Shown: piece after piece, positions 1-7,112 of the stretch
How the letters are laid out: the number at the start of each line of letters is the position of its first letter
Position numbering within the stretch: position 1 is the first letter of the stretch
DNA from: Firmicutes bacterium UBA7709
GTDB lineage: Bacteria > Bacillota_A > Clostridia > Peptostreptococcales > Anaerovoracaceae
Length of the DNA stretch: 7,112 nt
Reading direction: 5' to 3'
Assembly: GCA_002482405.1 (NCBI GenBank)
Contig: DLFX01000383.1
Span: 1-7,112 of the forward strand
Program-made: the position numbers and the translations under genes
Notes under the pieces: model-generated
Told to the model about the DNA's origin: nothing
What the model saw: the letters and a program-made list of their open reading frames with translations, nothing else
Database searches by the model: none

Positions 1-539
1 ATGGCTTCCAGCACCTCGTCGATCCCGATGCCTTCCTTGGCTGAAATCAGGGGGGCGTCGTGGGCGTCGATCCCGATGATGTCTTCGATCTCGGCTTTGG
101 CTTCATCGGGCCTCGCGCTGGCAAGGTCAATTTTATTGATGACAGGCAAAATCTCCAGATCCTCGTCAAGGGCCAGATAGACGTTGGCGAGAGTCTGGGC
201 TTCCACCCCCTGGGTCGCGTCGACGATGAGGACCGCGCCTTCGCAGGCCGCGAGGCTTCTGGACACCTCATATGTAAAGTCCACATGCCCCGGCGTATCG
301 ATGAGATTGAAAATATATTCGTGGCCGTCCTTCGCCTTGTAAGCGAGACGCGTCGTCTGAAGCTTGATGGTGATTCCCCGCTCCCGCTCCAGATCCATGT
401 TGTCCAAAAACTGCTCCTTCATTTCCCTGTGGGAAACGAGGCCGGTATTTTCGATGATCCGGTCTGCCAGAGTGGATTTTCCGTGATCTATATGTGCGAT
501 AATGCAAAAATTTCTGATATACTTCTGGTATGAATTCAT
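1..539 (-). CDS. lepA: Translation elongation factor 4 (LepA), N-terminal GTPase domain, partial
   Basis: LepA (EF4) is a ribosome-bound GTPase of the EF-Tu/EF-G superfamily that acts on stalled or mis-translocated ribosomes. About 179 codons are visible before the gene leaves the window at position 1. The protein starts [20 protein letters not shown] and shows the translational GTPase motifs in order: P-loop AHIDHGKST (G1), RERGITIK (G2), IDTPGHVDF (G3), NKIDL (G4) and SAKEGIG (G5). The run [20 protein letters not shown] is characteristic of LepA rather than EF-G or EF-Tu. The reading frame is open throughout. The ATG at 539 is preceded by GGTGGAGGA, a strong if close ribosome binding site. 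The nearest upstream in-frame alternatives are not supported, and the ATG a few bases upstream is out of frame and stops at once. The gene is divergent from the GntR operon. Domains II to V and the LepA-specific C-terminal domain lie outside the window. Confidence 0.97.
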
Positions 540-576
540 TGTTCCTCCACCATTAAACCAAATAAACGAATTGAGG

Positions 577-605
577 ATACCATAAACGCATGGCGTTTAT
601 GGTAT
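577..605. repeat. Perfect 13-bp inverted repeat in lepA leader
   Basis: ATACCATAAACGC (577-589) and its exact reverse complement (593-605) flank a 3-nt loop. No T-tract follows on either strand, so it is not a standard terminator. It lies between the candidate lepA promoter and the lepA ribosome binding site and would fold as a strong leader hairpin. The outer 8 bases ATACCATA recur as a direct copy at 684-691, so the right arm has two possible partners. Confidence 0.85.
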
Positions 606-613
606 AGAGCCAT

Positions 614-645
614 GCGCCTTTTCGCCTTTGGCGAAATTCTGGCGC
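614..645. repeat. GC-rich interrupted hairpin in lepA leader
   Basis: An inner stem TTTCGCC (620-626) / GGCGAAA (630-636) has a 3-nt loop. An outer stem GCGCC (614-618) / GGCGC (641-645) is separated from it by a small asymmetric bulge. This is the middle of three successive hairpins between lepA and the GntR gene. It is not followed by a T-run. Confidence 0.7.
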
Positions 646-657
646 GGCACTAGATCC

Positions 658-687
658 GTATAATATCTGCGAATGCAGATATTATAC
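658..687. repeat. Perfect 13-bp inverted repeat overlapping lepA -10
   Basis: GTATAATATCTGC (658-670) and its exact reverse complement (675-687) are separated by GAAT. Each arm contains a TATAAT-like element, on opposite strands. The minus-strand copy is the candidate lepA -10. Because the palindrome overlaps the promoter, it may be a protein-binding site rather than an RNA hairpin. Confidence 0.8.
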
Positions 688-689
688 CA
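681..689 (-). promoter_or_regulatory. Candidate extended -10 promoter for lepA
   Basis: On the minus strand this reads TGGTATAAT, a perfect TATAAT with the TGn extended -10 element. No good -35 is seen 17 nt upstream, which is usual for extended -10 promoters. Transcription would start near 674 and give a leader of about 135 nt ahead of lepA containing two strong hairpins. The -10 lies inside the right arm of the inverted repeat at 658-687. This is inferred from sequence only. Confidence 0.45.
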
Positions 690-761
690 TACACCATTCT
701 CTGAAAAGTTAACGAATCATTAAATAATGCAATAAATTTTAAAAAAGAATCAAAATATCTG

Positions 762-790
762 TTGACAATATATCGTCACTGTATTATTGT
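762..790 (+). promoter_or_regulatory. Sigma-A-like promoter of the GntR-ABC operon
   Basis: A consensus -35 TTGACA (762-767) is followed 17 nt later by TATTGT (785-790) as -10, a 4/6 match. An alternative TATTAT at 782-787 matches better but has a short 14-nt spacer. The upstream 30-40 bases are very A/T-rich, like an UP element. The -10 lies inside the inverted repeat at 781-814, which suggests repression by promoter occlusion. Confidence 0.7.
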
Positions 791-814
791 ATTAATTGCC
801 TAATACAACAATAC
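781..814. promoter_or_regulatory. Putative GntR operator, 14-bp near-perfect inverted repeat
   Basis: GTATTATTGTATTA (781-794) and TAATACAACAATAC (801-814) are inverted copies with one mismatch in 14, separated by ATTGCC. The site covers the -10 and expected start point and ends one base before the AAAGGAGG ribosome binding site. GntR-family repressors of the YtrA type typically bind such palindromes upstream of their own gene, so autoregulation is the natural reading. Binding itself is inferred. Confidence 0.75.
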
Positions 815-832
815 AAAAGGAGGTTGCAATAT

Positions 833-1231
833 ATGGCGAATCAGTATAAAGCAAATATACCGATCTATTTGCAGCTGGTAGACAATTTCAGGCACCGGAT
901 CGCCTCAGGGGATTTAAAGGCCGGTTCGAAGCTTGAATCGGTGCGGGATCTGGCCATCAGTTTCGAGGTCAATCCCAACACGATGCAGCGCGCGCTGGCG
1001 GAGCTGGAACGGGACGGCCTTGTTTACGCGGACCGTACGGTAGGGCGCTTTATCACGGAAAATAAGGAGTTGATCAGTAAAATGCGCGAATCGGTAGCCC
1101 AGGAAATCATGGGGCAATTCATAGCACAAATAAAAAGTTTGGGATATTCAGACCAGGAAGCCCTGGATCTGTTTAAAAAGTTCTTAACAAATGACAGTGA
1201 AAACCAGAATCAAAGGAGGGCTTCAGAATGA
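833..1231 (+). CDS. GntR-family transcriptional regulator, YtrA subfamily
   Basis: A 132-residue DNA-binding repressor, expected to control its own operon. The winged helix-turn-helix spans roughly residues 5-75. It opens with the family motif [20 protein letters not shown], followed by LESVRDLA, the recognition-helix region [20 protein letters not shown] and the wing ADRTVGRFI. Only about 55 residues follow, a short helical tail without a FadR- or HutC-type ligand domain. That is the mark of the YtrA subfamily, which usually accompanies ABC exporters. The start is the ATG at 833, chosen because AAAGGAGG (816-823) lies 9 nt upstream. An in-frame TTG at 824 would abut the ribosome binding site. 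The stop overlaps the next start as ATGA (1228-1231), so translation is probably coupled to the ABC genes. The operator candidate lies at 781-814. The inducing signal is unknown. Confidence 0.93.
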
Positions 1232-1929
1232 ACACAGAACTGGTCAAGATCACCGATCTGACGAAAAAATACCGCGGAAAGGCCGCTTTGTCCCATCTCG
1301 ACCTGACGCTGGAATCAGGCCATATCATAGGGCTTCTCGGTCCCAACGGCAGCGGAAAGACGACCCTGATCAAAATTCTGACCGGAGCGATCAGGGATTA
1401 TGAAGGGACTGTCACCATCGACGGAAAAGCAGTCGGCCCGGAATCCAAGGCGCTGGTGTCCTATCTGCCTGACACCGCTTACTTCAGCTCATGGATGCGC
1501 CCTTTGGATATGATCTCGCTCTTTAAGGATTTCTATTCCGACTTCGATGAGCAGAAATGCCGGGAGATGCTGAAACGGCTGAACCTTAATGAAAACCAAA
1601 AGATCAGGGCTATGTCAAAGGGCATGATCGAGAAATTCCAGCTCTGCCTCGTGATGTCAAGGAATGCGAAAATCTACGTCCTCGACGAACCCATCGGCGG
1701 AGTGGACCCTGCCGCAAGAGATTACATCCTGGACACGATCCTCACAAATTACAGCGAGGACGCGACGATCTTCATGTCCACCCACCTGATTTCCGATGTG
1801 GAGCGGATCTTCGACACCGCGATTTTCCTGAAAGAGGGAGAGATCGTGCTGCAGGGCAATATCGACGACATCAGAGCAAAAGAAGAGAAATCCATCGATG
1901 AATTGTTCAGGGAGGTATTTAAATGTTAA
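1228..1929 (+). CDS. ABC transporter ATP-binding protein (YtrB-like)
   Basis: A 233-residue cytoplasmic ATPase that would energise the membrane protein encoded next. Visible motifs: Walker A GPNGSGKT (residues 38-45), a degenerate signature MSKGMIEKF (129-137) in place of LSGGQ, Walker B IYVLDEP (149-155), D-loop GGVD (157-160) and switch His186 in STHL. The Q-loop region reads YLPD, without an obvious Gln. The SKGM signature is common in exporter ATPases found next to YtrA-type regulators, so it does not by itself imply inactivity. Length is normal for a single nucleotide-binding domain without a C-terminal extension. AAAGGAGGG lies 7 nt before the ATG. The start overlaps the regulator stop by 4 nt, and the end overlaps the permease start by 7 nt, which places it firmly in the operon. 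The substrate is not predictable; antimicrobial or envelope-stress export is a family-based guess. Confidence 0.95.
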
Positions 1930-2735
1930 TCAAGCTGCTCAAATATGATATACGGTCCACCTGGAGGCATTTTGCCGGAGCTTACCTGGCGATACTCCTC
2001 GGCGTAATCATCCTTCCCCAGGTTTTTAAGTACGTTGACAATGTCTTTGCCAACGTTTTGGCGGGGTTCATCGCGACGGCCATCATCACCGCGACAGTCG
2101 CCGTCACGATCATAATGATTTTTAAAATTTTCAACGCCAATGTGTTTTCAAAGCAGGGGTATTTGACCATGACCCTTCCGGCGACCTCAACGGAGATCGT
2201 CTCTTCCAAGCTGCTGGTCAGCACCATGTGGGTCGTCCTCACCGGAATCGTGGCGGCCCTCGGCATCTTCATCTTTATCTGGGGCACCCCGGTGTCGGGG
2301 GATTTCTTCAGTGGGGGCAGGGAGCTCCTCGCGATGCTTGAAGGCCGTCAGGTTCTCGCGGCGGTTCTGATAGTTATAATCATAGTAATGTCCGCCGTAA
2401 AAGAGATTGCAAAGCTGTTTCTGGCCTGTTCCATCGCGCATCTGAAGCCCCTTGGCCGCTTCCGCGTCCTGGTGGGGATCCTCTCCTACTTTGTGTTTTC
2501 CTGGCTGGAAGCCCTGCTTTTGAAGGCTATCGCTTTTGTAGCCGGCAACATTCCCGGCGTCCAGTCATACGTCAGCCAGCTCACGCTTATCAACGGTTTT
2601 GGAACAGGGGTGGATGATTTTTACGGCGTGTTCAACGGCGCCATAGGCCTCGGCATCCTTTATGCCGTCATACTGGTGGTGATCTACAGCATCGGTACGA
2701 TTTGGATCCTGAATCATAAGCTGGATTTAGACTGA
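1923..2735 (+). CDS. ABC-2-type membrane permease of the GntR-regulated transporter
   Basis: A 270-residue integral membrane protein, the transmembrane half of the exporter. Six hydrophobic segments are visible at about residues 17-36, 43-68, 97-119, 143-170, 180-208 and 238-262, with a charged amphipathic N-terminus ([15 protein letters not shown]). The GYLTMTLPAT motif after helix 2 is typical of clostridial ABC-2 permeases paired with YtrB-like ATPases. No signal peptide or extracellular domain is seen. The start at 1923 has AGGGAGG (1909-1915) 7 nt upstream and lies inside the last codons of the ATPase gene, so the two are translationally coupled. It probably forms a transporter with two ATPase subunits and either a homodimer of this protein or a partner encoded elsewhere. 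The substrate is unknown. The gene ends the operon; degenerate 20-21-bp repeats and a terminator follow. Confidence 0.92.
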   Translation: MLIKLLKYDIRSTWRHFAGAYLAILLGVIILPQVFKYVDNVFANVLAGFIATAIITATVAVTIIMIFKIFNANVFSKQGYLTMTLPATSTEIVSSKLLVSTMWVVLTGIVAALGIFIFIWGTPVSGDFFSGGRELLAMLEGRQVLAAVLIVIIIVMSAVKEIAKLFLACSIAHLKPLGRFRVLVGILSYFVFSWLEALLLKAIAFVAGNIPGVQSYVSQLTLINGFGTGVDDFYGVFNGAIGLGILYAVILVVIYSIGTIWILNHKLDLD

Positions 2736-2795
2736 AACACCTGCGTCTGCCCTGAAACGCCTTGAGACTGCCTTGAAGCGCCTCGAGGCGTTCTC
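2733..2795. repeat. Degenerate 20-21-bp tandem repeat starting at the permease stop
   Basis: Three units begin with TGAAACACCT (2733), TGAAACGCCT (2753) and TGAAGCGCCT (2774), giving periods of 20 and 21 bp. The first unit begins with the permease stop codon itself. The third contains the perfect 12-bp palindrome CGCCTCGAGGCG (2779-2790). No function is evident; the tract looks like expansion of sequence around the stop codon. Confidence 0.6.
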
Positions 2796-2816
2796 GACCG
2801 ACCTCGATTTCAGTAA

Positions 2817-2849
2817 AAAAACAGGAGAGCTCCGCGCTTTCCTGTTTTT
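2817..2849. terminator. Bidirectional Rho-independent terminator
   Basis: A 14-bp stem (2817-2830 / 2836-2849), with one G-U pair when transcribed from the plus strand, and a 5-nt loop TCCGC. It has an A-tract on the left and a T-tract on the right, so it can end transcripts from both sides. It sits between the convergent permease and cfa genes and should serve both. Confidence 0.88.
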
Positions 2850-2860
2850 CATTTCAATTC

Positions 2861-2880
2861 AATCCCGATCAATCCCGATA
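2861..2880. repeat. 10-bp tandem duplication at the cfa stop codon
   Basis: AATCCCGATC is followed by AATCCCGATA. The stop codon of the minus-strand cfa gene (2869-2871) lies across the junction, so the last codons of the gene are duplicated just after the stop. It is a slippage-type duplication without evident function. Confidence 0.6.
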
Positions 2881-4083
2881 TATATAGTCCCTGGTCCACG
2901 GAATCCGGTCGTTGATGCCTTTCGTAAATACGAGCTGGTGAAGATCGATGTTTCCGGTGTTAAAGGACGCCGCGCAGGACTTCAGGTACAGCCGCCACAT
3001 GCGGATAAAAGTTTCATCCCTGGTTTTCTCTATTTCCGGCAAGGCTTTCTCAAAGTTGGCCGACCAGTGCTCCAGGGTTCTGCCGTAATGCCTGCGGAGG
3101 CTTTCCGCGTCGATGAGGTGGAATCCCTCCATCGACATATGCTTTACCAGTTCCTGGATGCTCGGAACGTACCCACCCGGGAAGATGTATTTATTGATCC
3201 AGGAATTTGTTCCGCCTTTGCCTTCGCTGTCGTGGGTGCCGGTGATGCAGTGAAGCAGCGACAGGCCGCCTCCGTTCAGCAGCTGCCCCACATGGGTGAA
3301 ATATTCGCGGAGATGGGCTTTGCCCAAATGCTCCGCCATGCCCACGCTTACGATCCGGTCGAACTTCCTGTCCTTTATCTCGCGGTAATCCATTCTCCGC
3401 ACTTCCACAAGATCCTCCAGGCCTTCCGCCTCGGCCCGCTCCGTTGCCGCCTTAAACTGTTCCTCACTGAGGGTGATCCCCATTACCTTTACTTTGTAAC
3501 TCTTTGCGGCCTCCAGGATCAGCTCTCCCCATCCGCAGCCGATGTCCAGAAGAGTTTGTCCCTCCTCCAGATTCAACTTTTTCAGGATGTGGCCGACCTT
3601 GTTCTTCTGCGCCTGATAGAGAGTATCCTCTTCGGATTTGAAATATCCACAGGAATAAGTCATGGTCCCGTCCAGCCAGAGCCGGTAAAAGTCGTTTCCG
3701 ATGTCATAGTGGTGCACGACGTTTTCCCTGCTCTTTTTCAGGTTGTTGGATATCGATTTTACCGCTTTATTATAGATGTTCCCCTTCCGCAGAAAGCTTT
3801 CCATATTGCGGTACATAGATTCGATCACCGTCTGGATGTCTCCTTCTATGTCAAGCCGTTTCTCCATATAAGCCTCTCCAAAGGCCATGGACGGATCGGC
3901 AATGATGTCCGCCTTGGGGATCGGCTCATTCAAAATCAGCCGGAAACGGCTTTCGCCCGCTCCGTAGGCCACCTCTTCTCCGTCCCAGTATTTCACCGTG
4001 CAGGGATCGGAAAACAAACCCTTGAACAGGGTTTTATAGAATGCCTTATCGATGTTATGATGTTTATTTGCTTTTGAATCCAC
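2869..4083 (-). CDS. cfa: Cyclopropane-fatty-acyl-phospholipid synthase
   Basis: Transfers a methylene unit from S-adenosylmethionine to cis double bonds of phospholipid acyl chains at the membrane, giving cyclopropane fatty acids. The 404-residue length matches the family. An N-terminal domain (residues 1-120, with LILNEPIPKADIIADPSMAF and FGEAYMEKRLDIEGDI) precedes the methyltransferase domain. That domain opens with HHYDIGNDFYRLWLDGTMTY and has the SAM-binding loop LLDIGCGWG (178-186). Residues matching the E. coli bicarbonate/active site are present: Cys145 in YSCGYF, Glu251 in GMAEHLG, His278 in LLHCITG and Tyr333 in RRHYGRTL. The likely start is GTG at 4083, with AAGGGA about 11 nt upstream; no ATG fits before residue 66, and starting there would remove conserved sequence. 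It is monocistronic here, convergent with the permease and divergent from the DUF4177 gene. CFA production commonly rises in stationary phase or acid stress, but no such control is visible. Confidence 0.97.
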   Translation of the reverse strand: MDSKANKHHNIDKAFYKTLFKGLFSDPCTVKYWDGEEVAYGAGESRFRLILNEPIPKADIIADPSMAFGEAYMEKRLDIEGDIQTVIESMYRNMESFLRKGNIYNKAVKSISNNLKKSRENVVHHYDIGNDFYRLWLDGTMTYSCGYFKSEEDTLYQAQKNKVGHILKKLNLEEGQTLLDIGCGWGELILEAAKSYKVKVMGITLSEEQFKAATERAEAEGLEDLVEVRRMDYREIKDRKFDRIVSVGMAEHLGKAHLREYFTHVGQLLNGGGLSLLHCITGTHDSEGKGGTNSWINKYIFPGGYVPSIQELVKHMSMEGFHLIDAESLRRHYGRTLEHWSANFEKALPEIEKTRDETFIRMWRLYLKSCAASFNTGNIDLHQLVFTKGINDRIPWTRDYIYRD

Positions 4084-4109
4084 GAGTTAACACTTCCCTT
4101 CTGTCCGAC

Positions 4110-4138
4110 ACGCAGGATACCAACTTATAATCCTGCGT
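4110..4138. promoter_or_regulatory. 9-bp perfect inverted repeat upstream of cfa
   Basis: ACGCAGGAT (4110-4118) and ATCCTGCGT (4130-4138) are exact inverted copies separated by 11 nt. The repeat lies 27 bp upstream of the cfa GTG, just beyond its ribosome binding site. It could be an operator or a leader hairpin. There is no T-tract, so it is not a terminator. Nearby minus-strand -10-like elements (TATAAC near 4160, TATAAG near 4129) lack convincing -35 partners, so the cfa promoter cannot be fixed. Confidence 0.55.
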
Positions 4139-4233
4139 ACCATCATTTTCGCCTCGTTATAATCATCTTACACCTCATACTGGATTTTCTTCAAGAGAAT
4201 TCTGTGTTATGATGAATATGAAACGGCTCGAAA

Positions 4234-4299
4234 GCTCCATATCATGAAGGTATGGAGCAGCTCGATAGATTTAGAATTTGTGCCGCCGCTTGGCGGCGG
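4234..4299 (+). promoter_or_regulatory. Two leader hairpins ahead of the DUF4177 gene
   Basis: GCTCCATA (4234-4241) pairs perfectly with TATGGAGC (4251-4258) around a 9-nt loop. CCGCCGC (4283-4289) pairs with GCGGCGG (4293-4299) around TTG. The second hairpin ends just before the GGAG ribosome binding site of the ATG at 4313, so it could hinder initiation. A TATGAT box near 4209 is a possible -10, but no good -35 accompanies it. No RNA family was recognised. Confidence 0.45.
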
Positions 4300-4312
4300 A
4301 ATGGAGACGAAT

Positions 4313-4510
4313 ATGGACAGATTTGAATATAAAACATTATTTACCGACGCCAAGGGCATATTTGGGGGCAAAGTCGACAAATACGCATTTCAACAGGAAC
4401 TAAACGAATTGGGATTGCAGGGATGGGAGTTAGTCAGCTCGATCCCTACCGCTCAAAGCTATGGAAGCACAAGGTGGGTCATTTCCATATTTAAACGTAG
4501 GATACAATAA
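4313..4510 (+). CDS. DUF4177 family small protein
   Basis: A 65-residue soluble protein matching the DUF4177 pattern: N-terminal strand MDRFEYKTLF, a middle KGIFGGKVD, a helix ending NELGLQGWEL, then VSSIPT and the closing strand GSTRWVISIFKRR. DUF4177 proteins have no established biochemical role; many are single small alpha/beta domains. The start at 4313 is preferred because GGAG (4303-4306) lies 6 nt upstream. In-frame ATGs at 4301 and 4244 lack a usable ribosome binding site, and the upstream extension would translate through the GC-rich hairpin. The gene stands alone: cfa diverges upstream, and 380 bp of non-coding repeats follow downstream. No convincing terminator is seen after it. 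Identity is fairly sure; function is unknown. Confidence 0.85.
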   Translation: MDRFEYKTLFTDAKGIFGGKVDKYAFQQELNELGLQGWELVSSIPTAQSYGSTRWVISIFKRRIQ

Positions 4511-4578
4511 CTTTCGTGATTTTTCGGAAGTTCGCGAGGGTTGCCGGGGTTTCTAGGGATCGCTGAGGATTGCCGCGC

Positions 4579-4701
4579 TCAATTTTTCGAACCTGGCGCA
4601 GCCATAGGTGCTTCCGTGCTCAAATATTCGAGTATGGTGAAGCCCTGCGGACTGTGGTGTTCAAATATTCGAGTCTGGCGCATGTTTTTCACCTTTGAAA
4701 G
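4579..4701 (+). repeat. 41-bp-period repeat array, forward orientation (three units)
   Basis: Units start at 4579, 4620 and 4661, exactly 41 bp apart. The conserved head is TCAAATATTCGAGT followed by a TGG about 2 nt later; the first unit has TCAATTTTTCGAAC and CTGGCGCA. The tails of each unit differ. The core CTCAAATATTCGAG is a near-perfect 14-bp palindrome with one mismatched pair. A 41-bp spacing is close to four helical turns, so the cores would face the same side of the DNA. The low identity of heads and the short length argue against CRISPR. Confidence 0.75.
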
Positions 4702-4724
4702 CCCTCAGAGCAAGAAAATATACA
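4695..4724 (+). promoter_or_regulatory. Weak promoter candidate for the ligase/radical SAM operon
   Basis: TTGAAA (4695-4700) and TATACA (4719-4724) are spaced by 18 nt, with 5/6 and 4/6 consensus matches. Transcription would start near 4731, giving a leader of about 160 nt made of the inverted 41-bp units. The promoter would sit between the two oppositely oriented arrays. It is the best candidate I can see in the gap, but still weak. Confidence 0.35.
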
Positions 4725-4861
4725 CCTTACTTGAAAATATGAGCAAAAAGTTACTCCAAGCTTGGAATTTTGAGCAGTGCAAGCAAACATCCTACCCCAA
4801 GCTTGGAATTCTGAGCAGCCCAAGCAAACATTCTACTCCATGCTTGGAATTTTGAGCAAGG
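4721..4861 (-). repeat. 41-bp-period repeat array, inverted orientation (about four units)
   Basis: Units start at 4721 (shortened to 31 bp), 4752, 4793 and 4834 (partial). The three later units share CCAAGCTTGGAATTTTGAGC; the last has CCATGCTTGG and the middle one GAATTC. Read on the minus strand the units begin TGCTCAAAATTC, matching the forward array head. The closest pair, 4723-4746 on the minus strand against 4616-4639 on the plus strand, agrees at 19 of 24 positions. Two units carry the perfect palindrome CCAAGCTTGG. Here the unit tails are also conserved (AAGCAAACAT), unlike in the forward array. Confidence 0.75.
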
Positions 4862-4892
4862 TCAAGGTAAGGTGGAGAAGGGAAACGATGGA

Positions 4893-6035
4893 ATGAGCAG
4901 GCCGACCATGGACCATTGGATCATAGAAAAGATCAAAGCGCGGGACCATCTCCCGGGCTGTAAGTCTGAGCGCCCCAGGCCGGAATCGGTTTGCGAACCC
5001 GGCGGCAGGTCGGAATCCGGATTGCTTGACCGCCGGGAGCTGGAGCGCTGGCAATTGGACAGGATCAACGGCACCCTCGACCTCGCCGCGGAAAAAAGCC
5101 ATTTTTACCGGACGCTTTTTGAGAATGTCAAATTGGACAGTCTGAAAATCAAACCGGACAGGCCGAAGGTCAAGCTGGACACACTGAATATCAAGCTGGA
5201 CAGACTGTCGGATCTGGAGCGCCTCCCCTTTACGACGCCGGAGGATCTCAGGGCCGATCCCTATCGCCTGCTCTGCGTCCATCCAAGCGAAATCAGCCGC
5301 ATCGTGACGCTTTGCACCAGCGGCAGCACCGGCGTGTCAAAACGAGTATTCTTTACGGAAGCGGATCTGGAACTGTGCGTCGACTATTTCCATCACGGCA
5401 TGCGCAATTTAGTTGACGAAAGCGATACGGTGGGGATTCTGTTTCCCTTTCAAACTCCTGCTTCGGTGGGAGATCAGTTGATCAGGGGACTTGATCGGCT
5501 TGGTGCAAAGACGGAACCCCTTTTCGGCCTGTCTAACGAGGAGATCGCGTGTTCCATCAGGGAACGCGGAATCACTTCCCTGGCGGGTATGCCGGGGCAG
5601 ATCTCAGAGTTGGCAAGCTTATACCGTCCGCTTTCAACGATAAAATCCGTGCTTCTGAGCGCGGACTTTGTTTCCGATGAGGCCAGAAAGACCATCCGGG
5701 ACGCCTGGGGCGCGGAGGTATTCGAGCATTACGGCATGACGGAAATGGGACTCGGCTGCGCCGTCAGCTGCGAATATCAAAAGGGATACCATGTCCGGGA
5801 AGCCGACCTGTATTTGGAAATCATTGACCCGGAAACGGGCGCGGTTCTGCCCGACGGGGAATGGGGCGAAATCGCGTTTACCACTCTGACGCGAACCGGG
5901 ATGCCGTTTATCCGATATCGCACCGGCGACGTCAGCCGTTGGAAAACCGAAGCCTGCTCCTGCGGGAGCGGACTAAAGCTGTTGGATTATATTCAGGACA
6001 GAAATATTAAAAAAGGCCAGACACCCCGGACATAA
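4893..6035 (+). CDS. AMP-dependent CoA ligase, DVU_1553-like (phenylacetate-CoA ligase superfamily)
   Basis: An ANL-superfamily adenylating enzyme expected to activate a carboxylate with ATP, and probably to form a CoA thioester. In the 380-residue form, the P-loop TSGSTG is at 142-147, YGMTE at 280-284, the ribose-binding Asp is in RYRTGD (341-346), and the PaaK-type CSCG is at 355-358. The N-terminus (PTMDHWI, LERWQLDRI, AEKSHFYR) and LPFTTPEDLR followed by LLCVHPSEISRIVTL fit the subfamily NCBI calls DVU_1553, recalled rather than searched. ATG 4893 is preferred, with GGAGAAGGG upstream; an in-frame GTG at 4872 is possible. Oddities: a linker of four 7-residue repeats (79-106), a 30-bp duplication near residues 29-48, and an end soon after CSCG, so the usual C-terminal domain with its catalytic lysine is missing. 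The gene precedes a radical SAM gene by 88 nt in the same direction. The substrate is unknown. Confidence 0.85.
   Translation: MSRPTMDHWIIEKIKARDHLPGCKSERPRPESVCEPGGRSESGLLDRRELERWQLDRINGTLDLAAEKSHFYRTLFENVKLDSLKIKPDRPKVKLDTLNIKLDRLSDLERLPFTTPEDLRADPYRLLCVHPSEISRIVTLCTSGSTGVSKRVFFTEADLELCVDYFHHGMRNLVDESDTVGILFPFQTPASVGDQLIRGLDRLGAKTEPLFGLSNEEIACSIRERGITSLAGMPGQISELASLYRPLSTIKSVLLSADFVSDEARKTIRDAWGAEVFEHYGMTEMGLGCAVSCEYQKGYHVREADLYLEIIDPETGAVLPDGEWGEIAFTTLTRTGMPFIRYRTGDVSRWKTEACSCGSGLKLLDYIQDRNIKKGQTPRT
4976..5035 (+). repeat. Degenerate 30-bp duplication in the ligase N-terminus
   Basis: CAGGCCGGAATC (4976-4987) recurs as CAGGTCGGAATC (5006-5017), exactly 30 bp later, with weaker similarity through the rest of each unit. 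The period keeps the reading frame. It falls in a Ser/Arg/Pro/Gly-rich stretch of the ligase that has no counterpart I recognise in the family. Confidence 0.5.
5127..5210 (+). repeat. Four in-frame 21-bp tandem repeats in the ligase
   Basis: Units start at 5127, 5148, 5169 and 5190. They encode VKLDSLK, IKPDRPK, VKLDTLN and IKLDRLS, a 7-residue pattern [VI]K[LP]D followed by three variable residues. They lie between the conserved FYRTLF and LERLPFTTPEDLR, where relatives usually have a short linker. The hydrophobic/charged heptad could form an extra amphipathic helix. Confidence 0.85.
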
Positions 6036-6116
6036 GAGGATAAAAAAGACTGGATACCGACTAATAAGAGGATTTAAATAAAGGCCGGACATAGGATATA
6101 GGAGGATATAGGAGGA
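6008..6116 (+). repeat. Degenerate ~30-bp repeats across ligase end and radical SAM leader
   Basis: Three related units, each running from A-rich sequence through a CCGGACAT-like core to a purine-rich GAGGAT: CCGGACATAAGAGGAT at 6026, CCGACTAATAAGAGGAT at 6057 and CCGGACATAGGAT at 6085. The ligase stop TAA (6033-6035) lies inside the first. The last ends in a 10-bp tandem duplication (GATATAGGAG at 6095 and 6105), giving two strong GGAGG sites. The one at 6111-6115, 8 nt before ATG 6124, is the likely functional ribosome binding site. Confidence 0.6.
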
Positions 6117-6123
6117 TTTAAGG

Positions 6124-7112
6124 ATGAAGATTACAGCCACACCGACAAAGAAAACCTACAGTGTATGCCCGGTATGCCTGAAACGCATTCCCGCAAAGCT
6201 GGTCCTGCGGGATGGAAGCTGGTATATGGAAAAAGCCTGTGCAGAGCACGGAAGCTATACGACCGTGGTCTGGAGGGGCTCGGCTTCAAGCCTCAAAGGA
6301 TGGGGGAATTACCATCCCCCGAAAGAAAATGAGGCGGATCTGCCAAATTGCCCCGACGACTGCGGCCTTTGCGACAAACACCTTCAGAGCACCTGCTGTG
6401 TGCTGGTGGAAGTAACGGACCGTTGCAATCTCCGCTGTCCCGTCTGCTTTGCCGAAAGCGGGGACGAGGAACGTGGGCCGGCAGAGATCGGAGACAAGGA
6501 CGGTGCCCAGACAAAAATCGGAGATGAAAAAGGAACCGCGGAAAAAAGCGAAGGCGGAAAAAGAACTGCGGAAAAAAGCGTCGACGAGCTATTCGGGGAT
6601 TTTAAAGCTTTGATTGAAAAAGAATGCCGGTTCATTCAGCTTTCCGGAGGCGAGCCCACCGTCCGGGACGACCTCCCTGAAATCGTAGCGGCGGCAAAGA
6701 AAGCGGGAGCCACCTCTGTCCAGCTGAATTCCAACGGGCTCCGCCTGGGAAAAGAGCCCGAATACACGAAGCGCCTCGCCGACGCCGGACTGGATTTCGT
6801 GTTCATGCAGTTTGATGGGATGGATGACGAGGTCTACAAAACCCTCAGGGGCAGACCCATGCTGAAAGAAAAACTGGAAGCCATCAAGGTCTGTGGGGAT
6901 AACGGCATCGGCGTCACTCTCGTACCCACCGTGGTTCCCGGCGTCAACGACCGGCAGATCGGAGCGGTCATAAAATTCGGAATGGAACGCTCTCCGGCAG
7001 TGCGAGGCGTGCACTTTCAGCCTATCAGCTATTTCGGACGCTACCCGGAGCCGCCGAAGGATGAAAACCGGATCACGCTGCCGGAAATCCTGACCGCCAT
7101 CGAGGAACAGAC
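6124..7112 (+). CDS. Radical SAM protein, TrsS / MJ0619 (Tes)-like, partial
   Basis: An iron-sulfur enzyme cleaving S-adenosylmethionine to start radical chemistry; 329 codons are visible before the window edge. An N-terminal metal site CPVC (15, 18) with Cys39 and His42 resembles a rubredoxin-like knuckle. CPDDCGLCDKH (76-86) and Cys91-Cys92 follow, then the radical SAM cluster motif CNLRCPVC (101-108) and the SAM-binding GGEP (175-178). This order, including VTDRCNLRCPVCFAES, matches archaeal MJ0619-type proteins such as tetraether synthase Tes, and the bacterial family I recall as radical SAM (seleno)protein TrsS. No in-frame TGA occurs in the visible part, so it is a Cys form so far. Residues 122-151 are three 10-residue repeats inserted between the cluster loop and GGEP. 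ATG 6124 has GGAGG 8 nt upstream. With the upstream ligase it probably forms an operon. Substrate unknown. Confidence 0.88.
   Translation, partial: MKITATPTKKTYSVCPVCLKRIPAKLVLRDGSWYMEKACAEHGSYTTVVWRGSASSLKGWGNYHPPKENEADLPNCPDDCGLCDKHLQSTCCVLVEVTDRCNLRCPVCFAESGDEERGPAEIGDKDGAQTKIGDEKGTAEKSEGGKRTAEKSVDELFGDFKALIEKECRFIQLSGGEPTVRDDLPEIVAAAKKAGATSVQLNSNGLRLGKEPEYTKRLADAGLDFVFMQFDGMDDEVYKTLRGRPMLKEKLEAIKVCGDNGIGVTLVPTVVPGVNDRQIGAVIKFGMERSPAVRGVHFQPISYFGRYPEPPKDENRITLPEILTAIEEQ
6487..6576 (+). repeat. Three in-frame 30-bp tandem repeats in the radical SAM gene
   Basis: Units start at 6487, 6517 and 6547, encoding IGDKDGAQTK, IGDEKGTAEK and SEGGKRTAEK. They form a charged, Gly-rich and probably disordered loop right after the CxxxCxxC cluster loop and before the FIQLSGGEPT strand. 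In related proteins as I remember them, the sequence between these motifs is shorter. Confidence 0.75.

Follow-up and report, generated by a model that had tools for sequence, protein, structure and literature searches.

A ligase–TrsS gene pair on a Clostridia contig and its association with Mop-type aldehyde oxidoreductase modules

A stretch of 7,112 nt from the Clostridia genome Firmicutes bacterium UBA7709 (assembly GCA_002482405.1, contig DLFX01000383.1, positions 1 to 7,112; called the window below) ends in a pair of genes encoding an AMP-forming ligase of the DVU_1553 family and a cysteine-rich radical S-adenosylmethionine (SAM) protein of the TrsS family. The question raised by this locus is what such a pair serves, as searches of open-licence PMC literature, judged by titles, abstracts, and some passages, listed no paper on the function of TrsS or of DVU_1551–DVU_1557, and no experiment. 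The TrsS pathway is almost certainly linked to a Mop-type aldehyde oxidoreductase (AOR). We infer from sequence that the ligase and TrsS probably belong to a dedicated accessory (maturation) pathway for a module made up of this AOR, the flavin/dicluster protein DIC, and the four-Cys protein DVU_1557. This reading draws on the family assignments, on co-occurrence in two samples of genomes, on a gene row, operon-like in layout, beside a Desulfovibrio gigas-type AOR, and on gene fusions.

The two open reading frames (ORFs) are located on the forward strand (4872/4893–6035 and 6124–7110), the second being open at the window end. An initial annotation made from the letters alone had named them a DVU_1553-like ligase and a TrsS protein, and database models agree with both names. 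The ligase scored 385.3 bits against NF045666 (“DVU_1553 family AMP-dependent CoA ligase”), exceeding the cut-off of 300, and an ordinary PaaK is ruled out by the scores in two PaaK models (144.6 of 700 and 118.7 of 646). The best family of the radical SAM fragment was TrsS NF045646 (394.4 bits, cut-off 490). Its full-length database counterpart P0001 (499 aa), which is 100% identical to the window part over 329 aa, passes the same cut-off with 528.2 bits; the Tes model NF045702 came second for P0001, whose score stayed under its cut-off (309.7 bits of 450). P0001 and P0121, the database copy of the ligase, both carry a longest-contig entry of 79,013 bases, as expected if the two genes are linked. 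The motifs CPVC, CPDDCGLC, CNLRCPVC, and GGEP noted initially are present, and their cysteines and GGEP (the latter a SAM-binding motif) are invariant or nearly so across two alignments, of 26 and of 97 sequences, that contain P0001. The predicted TrsS structure had a confidence (predicted local distance difference test) of 69 in the first model and 80 in a later model built from 97 sequences. In-frame TGA codons occupy two columns among 109 TrsS rows, neither at a conserved Cys, and none was present within the window part of TrsS. A 2026 review, in the part available, names TrsS once, as a selenoprotein family (PMC13188914).

The ligase has an AMP-binding adenylation domain (PF00501, 51.1 bits) and a TSGSTG P-loop; a strict P-loop pattern was found in 107 of its 120 best database matches. 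The C-terminal domain that carries the A10 lysine in ANL acyl-CoA ligases is absent from the window ligase, whose tail extends 7 aa beyond the last profile position, and the tail is at most 29 aa long in all 120 best matches (its own copy, P0121, included). The carboxylate activation proposed in the initial annotation is therefore uncertain here as the work of a CoA ligase, and the window protein is a single N-terminal adenylation domain. The idea that the entire DVU_1553 family lacks a C-terminal domain proved wrong: among the 44 ligases in the TrsS loci described below, 34 extend 56 to 139 aa further and 10 stop at most 12 aa past the last matched position. Many of the longer family members have a Lys-Arg tail motif.

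For the gene neighbourhoods, we used the best 80 of at least 564 genome stretches encoding a relative, found with an alignment of 26 TrsS relatives. According to their record titles, they come from Clostridia, Bacteroidales, Acidobacteria and Holophagaceae, Synergistetes, and Deltaproteobacteria. ORFs were clustered and 20 chosen representatives were scanned with NCBIfam, leaving some recurring clusters unnamed; the locus counts rest on profiles built here and on score limits set by us, and contig ends shorten many loci. The named neighbours were AOR (NF045668), DIC (NF045663; a flavin adenine dinucleotide (FAD)/HdrD-like protein of electron-transfer type with two CCG motifs), the ligase, the DVU_1556 methyltransferase, C_GCAxxG_C_C proteins, DVU_1557, the DVU_1551 nucleotidyltransferase, and an XdhC-type factor; MoeA-like genes likewise occur in the set. 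AOR was present in 39 of the 80 loci, DIC in 52, DVU_1557 in 47, the ligase (adjoining TrsS in the window) in 44, the methyltransferase in 47, and the nucleotidyltransferase in 27. AOR, DIC, or DVU_1557 was found in 54 loci, and at least one of seven core partners in 67. The methyltransferase, MobA-like transferase, C_GCAxxG_C_C protein, and small redox protein that had been named as partners thus do surround TrsS in relatives, but that list omitted the strongest partners (AOR, DIC, and the XdhC-type factor), which place the system in molybdoenzyme biology.

Several partners are joined in one protein. Fusions of methyltransferase and ligase occur in 8 loci, of nucleotidyltransferase and phosphatase in 4, of phosphatase and nucleotidyltransferase in 2 more, and of TrsS and a DUF5714 protein in 5 (L025, L028, L029, L069, and L075); the DUF5714 protein is related to the double selenoprotein MbdU. 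Methyltransferase and nucleotidyltransferase are fused in L073, and nucleotidyltransferase and TrsS in L071 (1798–3582). The latter has a broken frame: a TGA stands where Trp is conserved, and the C-terminal part is split, defects that we ascribe to sequencing error or decay. In L027 (13043–13987), a MocA-like nucleotidyltransferase continues into a ModE-type domain, which scores 54.4 bits (below the cut-off of 98.5 for that model). A malic-enzyme-like gene lies two genes ahead of TrsS in 4 of the 80 loci (L020:6249–7448 and three others), and clusters identified by eye as ATP-binding cassette (ABC) transporter-like, which may serve molybdate uptake, recur in 13, 7, and 6 loci. A CobW-type GTPase stands ahead of TrsS in L042, L045, L055, L056, L076, L077, and L080, mostly with no AOR in the locus; the TrsS proteins there may form a subgroup that has a different metal partner.

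Co-occurrence across whole genomes likewise connects TrsS with AOR. The first sample was an even draw of 299 genomes from one phylum, judged by curated model cut-offs: TrsS passed in 20, AOR in 23, and both in 19 (Fisher 3.5e-25, a value that, like the one below, ignores the relatedness of genomes). In the 20th TrsS genome (G101), the AOR match is a fragment (952.7 bits) that lies at a contig end and shares its contig with TrsS. Among the four genomes with AOR and no TrsS over the cut-off, G318 and G098 have TrsS scores of 455 and 469, and the TrsS match in G108 is a fragment of 332 bits. Seven genomes (G108 included) gave weaker TrsS-like matches, of 241 to 367 bits, mostly without AOR over the cut-off; in G099, TrsS is absent and an AOR fragment falls just short of the cut-off. 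The ligase, for which the initial annotation had suggested a comparison of profiles with the radical SAM protein, exceeded its cut-off in 19 genomes, of which 18 are TrsS genomes. DIC exceeded its cut-off in 27, again including 18 TrsS genomes, and six of the nine others carry a lower-scoring class of approximately 850 residues with AOR not over the cut-off; G028 has DIC divided between two frames. At E ≤ 1e-130, the AOR model matched 83 genomes, including all 23 AOR genomes. Because only 23 of these 83 pass the cut-off, the TrsS link is to this AOR clade and not to Mo-hydroxylases generally; a general Mo-hydroxylase function is ruled out, as few of the 60 matching genomes under the cut-off have TrsS.

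The second sample comprised 199 genomes, without completeness figures, from the family of a genome with Desulfovibrio in its title (TrsS at E ≤ 1e-60, AOR at E ≤ 1e-150). TrsS was found in 131, AOR in 134, both in 127, and neither in 61 (Fisher 4.8e-38). Overall, AOR falls into two score classes, roughly 1100–1240 and 1370–1730 bits, and TrsS accompanies both.

The loci closest to the window, L001–L004, have TrsS proteins of 58–61% identity, and L008, L010, L016, and L059, grouped with them by gene layout and not by tree, have 50–55%. These eight contain varying subsets of a methyltransferase, a nucleotidyltransferase-phosphatase fusion that precedes TrsS, and an HD protein that follows TrsS, with the ligase in L004 only and AOR in none. 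Of 30 TrsS genomes checked for AOR, mostly chosen because AOR did not adjoin TrsS, 25 were over the cut-off. The seven genomes behind L001–L004, L008, L010, and L016 include six over the cut-off; the AOR of the seventh, G005 (L008), is a fragment next to a contig end. Eight AOR regions were fetched from these seven genomes: DIC stands beside AOR in seven, and DVU_1557 follows in five of those seven, the others being cut by contig ends. Since the closest loci without AOR have it, mostly with DIC, elsewhere in the genome, the system is most likely split here too, with one half of it in the window.

The best solved relative of AOR is 1sij/1vlb, which we take to be the D. gigas aldehyde oxidoreductase; the two are homologous over 900 residues. 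In genome G343, an AOR gene matches a piece of 1sij/1vlb at 83 of 83 residues (100%) and stands in a row of MoeA-like, AOR, DIC, DVU_1557, methyltransferase, C_GCAxxG_C_C protein, TrsS, ligase, XdhC-type factor, and His-phosphatase genes. Seven of eight scanned proteins of this row pass the NCBIfam cut-offs, the XdhC-type factor being just under (338.8 of 350), and the nucleotidyltransferase is situated elsewhere in the genome. Work on the D. gigas enzyme goes back decades and regards flavodoxin as its putative partner (PMC10223205). In the available parts of that article, “operon” is not mentioned, and a figure legend names MCD-Mo or MPT-Mo regions, with the molybdopterin cytosine dinucleotide (MCD) and molybdopterin (MPT) cofactor forms.

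We propose an accessory pathway with the following steps. The MobA-like protein DVU_1551 would be a molybdopterin cytidylyltransferase, and it is the likely maker of MCD, if AOR carries MCD, because no other MocA-like gene turned up in 10 of 12 genomes checked: there, the single MocA-like match coincides with the best DVU_1551-type match. None of these matches exceeds the TIGR03310 cut-off, and the DVU_1551 cut-off is passed in 4 of the 12 genomes. The nucleotidyltransferase fits the MocA model better in G243 and G316; G171 has only weak matches, and G001 has no MocA-like match. The ligase would act on a small molecule or on a protein tail, adenylating it at a carboxylate (or hydroxyl), and the methyltransferase would methylate the substrate. 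TrsS would then take a hydrogen from an unactivated carbon, and a Tes-type C-terminal cluster with a labile Met may capture the carbon radical. The product would be passed to AOR or to the electron path formed by DIC and DVU_1557.

Several observations weigh against this proposal. Co-occurrence by itself does not separate maturation from a metabolic pathway that uses AOR. Thirteen of the 80 TrsS loci have none of the seven core partners, and six of these have the CobW-type GTPase. Four of the 30 TrsS genomes checked were under the AOR cut-off and one (G027, L067) had no match; in the first sample, G220 has AOR and no TrsS. In the second, TrsS occurs without an AOR match in 4 of the 199 genomes (G329, G443, G503, and G525), for three of which contig ends may be the explanation, as G443 and G525 hold short AOR end pieces and DIC lies at contig base 1 in G503. 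G329 is the clearest Trs-only case, with two tandem TrsS genes, the ligase, and a DUF5714 protein at one locus (L112) and no AOR match in the genome. Conversely, AOR occurs without TrsS in seven of the 199 (G355, G380, G452, G464, G509, G517, and G519). AOR or DIC lies at a contig edge in G355, G452, G464, and G519; contig ends do not obviously explain G517, nor G380 and G509, in each of which AOR matches twice. The D. gigas AOR presumably carries plain MCD, and we know of no Trs-made mark on the crystallised cofactor. The enzyme is also active without a sulfido ligand, according to the parts available of two articles (PMC3877041; PMC10223205). That we know of no mark on the cofactor is the strongest constraint on the role of Trs.

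A metabolic pathway would read the same genes differently: AOR would oxidise an aldehyde to an acid, the ligase would activate the acid, TrsS and the methyltransferase would convert it further, and DIC would take the electrons. An oxidoreductase followed by an acid-activating ligase is consecutive chemistry, and DIC, with its two CCG motifs, suits the last step. In Clostridium ljungdahlii, AOR, an FAD/CCG oxidoreductase, a four-Cys protein, and a C_GCAxxG_C_C protein were described in 2017 as tandem sets, the first of which is raised on syngas and/or H2/CO2; the accessible text does not mention “radical SAM” (PMC5640608). We rate a metabolic role somewhat higher because transporter-like and malic-enzyme-like genes recur in some loci, and still regard it as unlikely on balance, given that the set includes cofactor genes (XdhC-type, MoeA-like, and the sole MocA-like gene of most genomes checked) and that a ligase of the window type lacks the C-terminal domain for the thioesterification step. 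Another reading takes the nucleotidyltransferase away from MCD. The iron-guanylylpyridinol (FeGP) cofactor of [Fe]-hydrogenase is the model for a nucleotide-tailed organic cofactor, unrelated to MCD, that would be built by the ligase, methyltransferase, radical SAM protein, nucleotidyltransferase, and phosphatase and used by DIC. The enzyme types fit, and the fusions link the nucleotidyltransferase to TrsS, methyltransferase, and phosphatase domains; the same nucleotidyltransferase is probably needed for MCD, being the only MocA-like one in 10 of the 12 genomes, and in L027 it is fused to the ModE-type domain noted above, albeit under the cut-off. We consider such a cofactor improbable.

The lipid-like substrate that the initial annotation had derived from the relation to Tes fares worse. 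TrsS would in that case couple or functionalise membrane lipid tails as Tes does, and it keeps the metal-site motifs of Tes. Tes Tyr459 is fully conserved among 1000 archaeal homologues, as the text available states (PMC9433317), and its position is taken in TrsS by Val482, nearly invariant in 97 sequences, although a Tyr (Tyr483) comes next in P0001. The TrsS sequence profile did not align over the Tes chain residues 332–445, TrsS co-occurs with a molybdoenzyme, and no lipid gene was present among the 20 neighbours named with hidden Markov models (HMMs), some recurring clusters being unnamed. A lipid-modifying role thus appears highly improbable.

If the accessory pathway has a protein as its object, DVU_1557 is a candidate. 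It usually follows DIC, and the conservation of its free C-terminus, (L/M)-E-D-K, is close to that of its metal-binding cysteines. Among 51 matches in the 80 loci, 49 score at least 60 bits; of these, 48 have LEDK or MEDK as their last residues and the remaining one has LEGK; a second set of 17 (D. gigas-type included, one region counted twice) ends in [LM]EDK throughout. In the best 120 of 2239 database relatives, which were ranked with a tail-containing profile and are thus biased toward the tail, the last Lys is present in 119, the preceding Asp in 119, and the Glu before that in 120, as is each of the four Cys (120/120). The plain reading is a docking tail. A bolder one, which we hold to be quite unlikely, makes DVU_1557 the object of Trs: a carboxylate would be joined by the ligase to [LM]EDK, or the tail itself activated, and the methyltransferase and TrsS, by radical C–S or C–C chemistry of the Tes type, would finish a protein-bound redox arm. 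This arm, loosely lipoyl-like, would exchange electrons with the two HdrB/HdrD-type CCG sites of DIC. If true, this would define a new kind of cofactor bound to protein and supply the electron partner so far missing for the D. gigas AOR.

The features of the two genes are listed in Table 1. Three 41-nt direct repeats (100, 88, and 66%) occur immediately upstream of the ligase (4752–4874) without an Rfam match, and in-frame tandem repeats with 15/30-nt units occur in the TrsS gene (6513–6587). Rfam gave nothing for the window at E ≤ 0.1; a molybdenum riboswitch was thus not found. Besides the ligase and TrsS, no partner gene of the Trs set lies within the window. The other genes seem unrelated: lepA and a GntR regulator with an ABC transporter (named by reading), and, by HMM, a DUF4177 protein and a cyclopropane fatty acid synthase-like gene. 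The last (2869–4083, reverse strand) matches PF02353 with 342 bits, is under the cut-offs of its four best-matching NCBIfam cyclopropane models, and is probably unconnected to Trs.

Table 1 Positions of the ligase and TrsS features in the window
Feature	Position	Strand	Basis
AMP-forming ligase, DVU_1553 family	4893..6035	+	NF045666 over cut-off; 380 aa from ATG 4893
Other possible ligase starts	GTG 4872 or ATG 4908	+	ORF reading
In-frame 21-nt repeat, 4 copies, within ligase gene	5123..5206	+	Repeat search
ATP P-loop TSGSTG, ligase	5316..5333	+	Sequence; aligned to PaaK 4r1l
Radical SAM protein TrsS, first 329 of 499 aa	6124..7112, remainder past window	+	NF045646
TrsS rubredoxin-like site C15-x2-C18-x20-C39-x2-H42	6166..6249	+	Spacing as Tes C9X2C12X20C33X2H36
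TrsS N-terminal auxiliary cluster ligands C76, C80, C83, H86	6349..6381	+	Analogy: Tes C73, C77, C80, plus a His
TrsS radical SAM cluster motif CNLRCPVC	6424..6447	+	PF04055 97.8 bits
TrsS GGEP motif	6646..6657	+	Sequence

Through the link to AOR, a radical SAM pathway with no assigned role is connected with a textbook enzyme, the D. gigas AOR, beside whose type of gene lie another candidate partner (DIC) and an entire unstudied pathway. It also makes the question of what TrsS makes directly testable by experiment: the DVU_ family names in NCBIfam derive from Desulfovibrio vulgaris, a laboratory strain whose genes can be deleted.

Four known systems bear comparison. The window ligase and full-length TrsS pass the models of the TrsS/DVU_1551–DVU_1557 system defined in NCBIfam (NF045645, NF045646, and NF045663–NF045669), and the neighbours of TrsS in relatives fall in these families. 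In contrast to the system so defined, the closest relatives have it split over two loci, the ligase is single-domain, and both window genes carry in-frame repeats. The AOR of relatives is a homologue of the D. gigas Mop AOR, and the Trs set adjoins the 83/83-matching AOR gene; it differs in falling into two score classes. The window ligase shares the adenylation domain, P-loop, and RTxD motif with PaaK-type phenylacetate-CoA ligases (4r1l, 2y4n), but ends at the hinge, past which 4r1l runs for about 107 residues. With Tes/GDGT-MAS (MJ0619, 7tol/7tom), TrsS has in common the fold and, at the motif level, the rubredoxin-like site, the N-terminal auxiliary-cluster motif, the radical SAM motif, and the labile Met, the C-terminal cluster ligands being partly traced. 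Unlike Tes, TrsS stays under the Tes cut-off, has Val in place of Tyr459, keeps other gene company, and possesses an invariant CDHPxC motif and an Arg-rich stretch in the region where its profile does not align with Tes.

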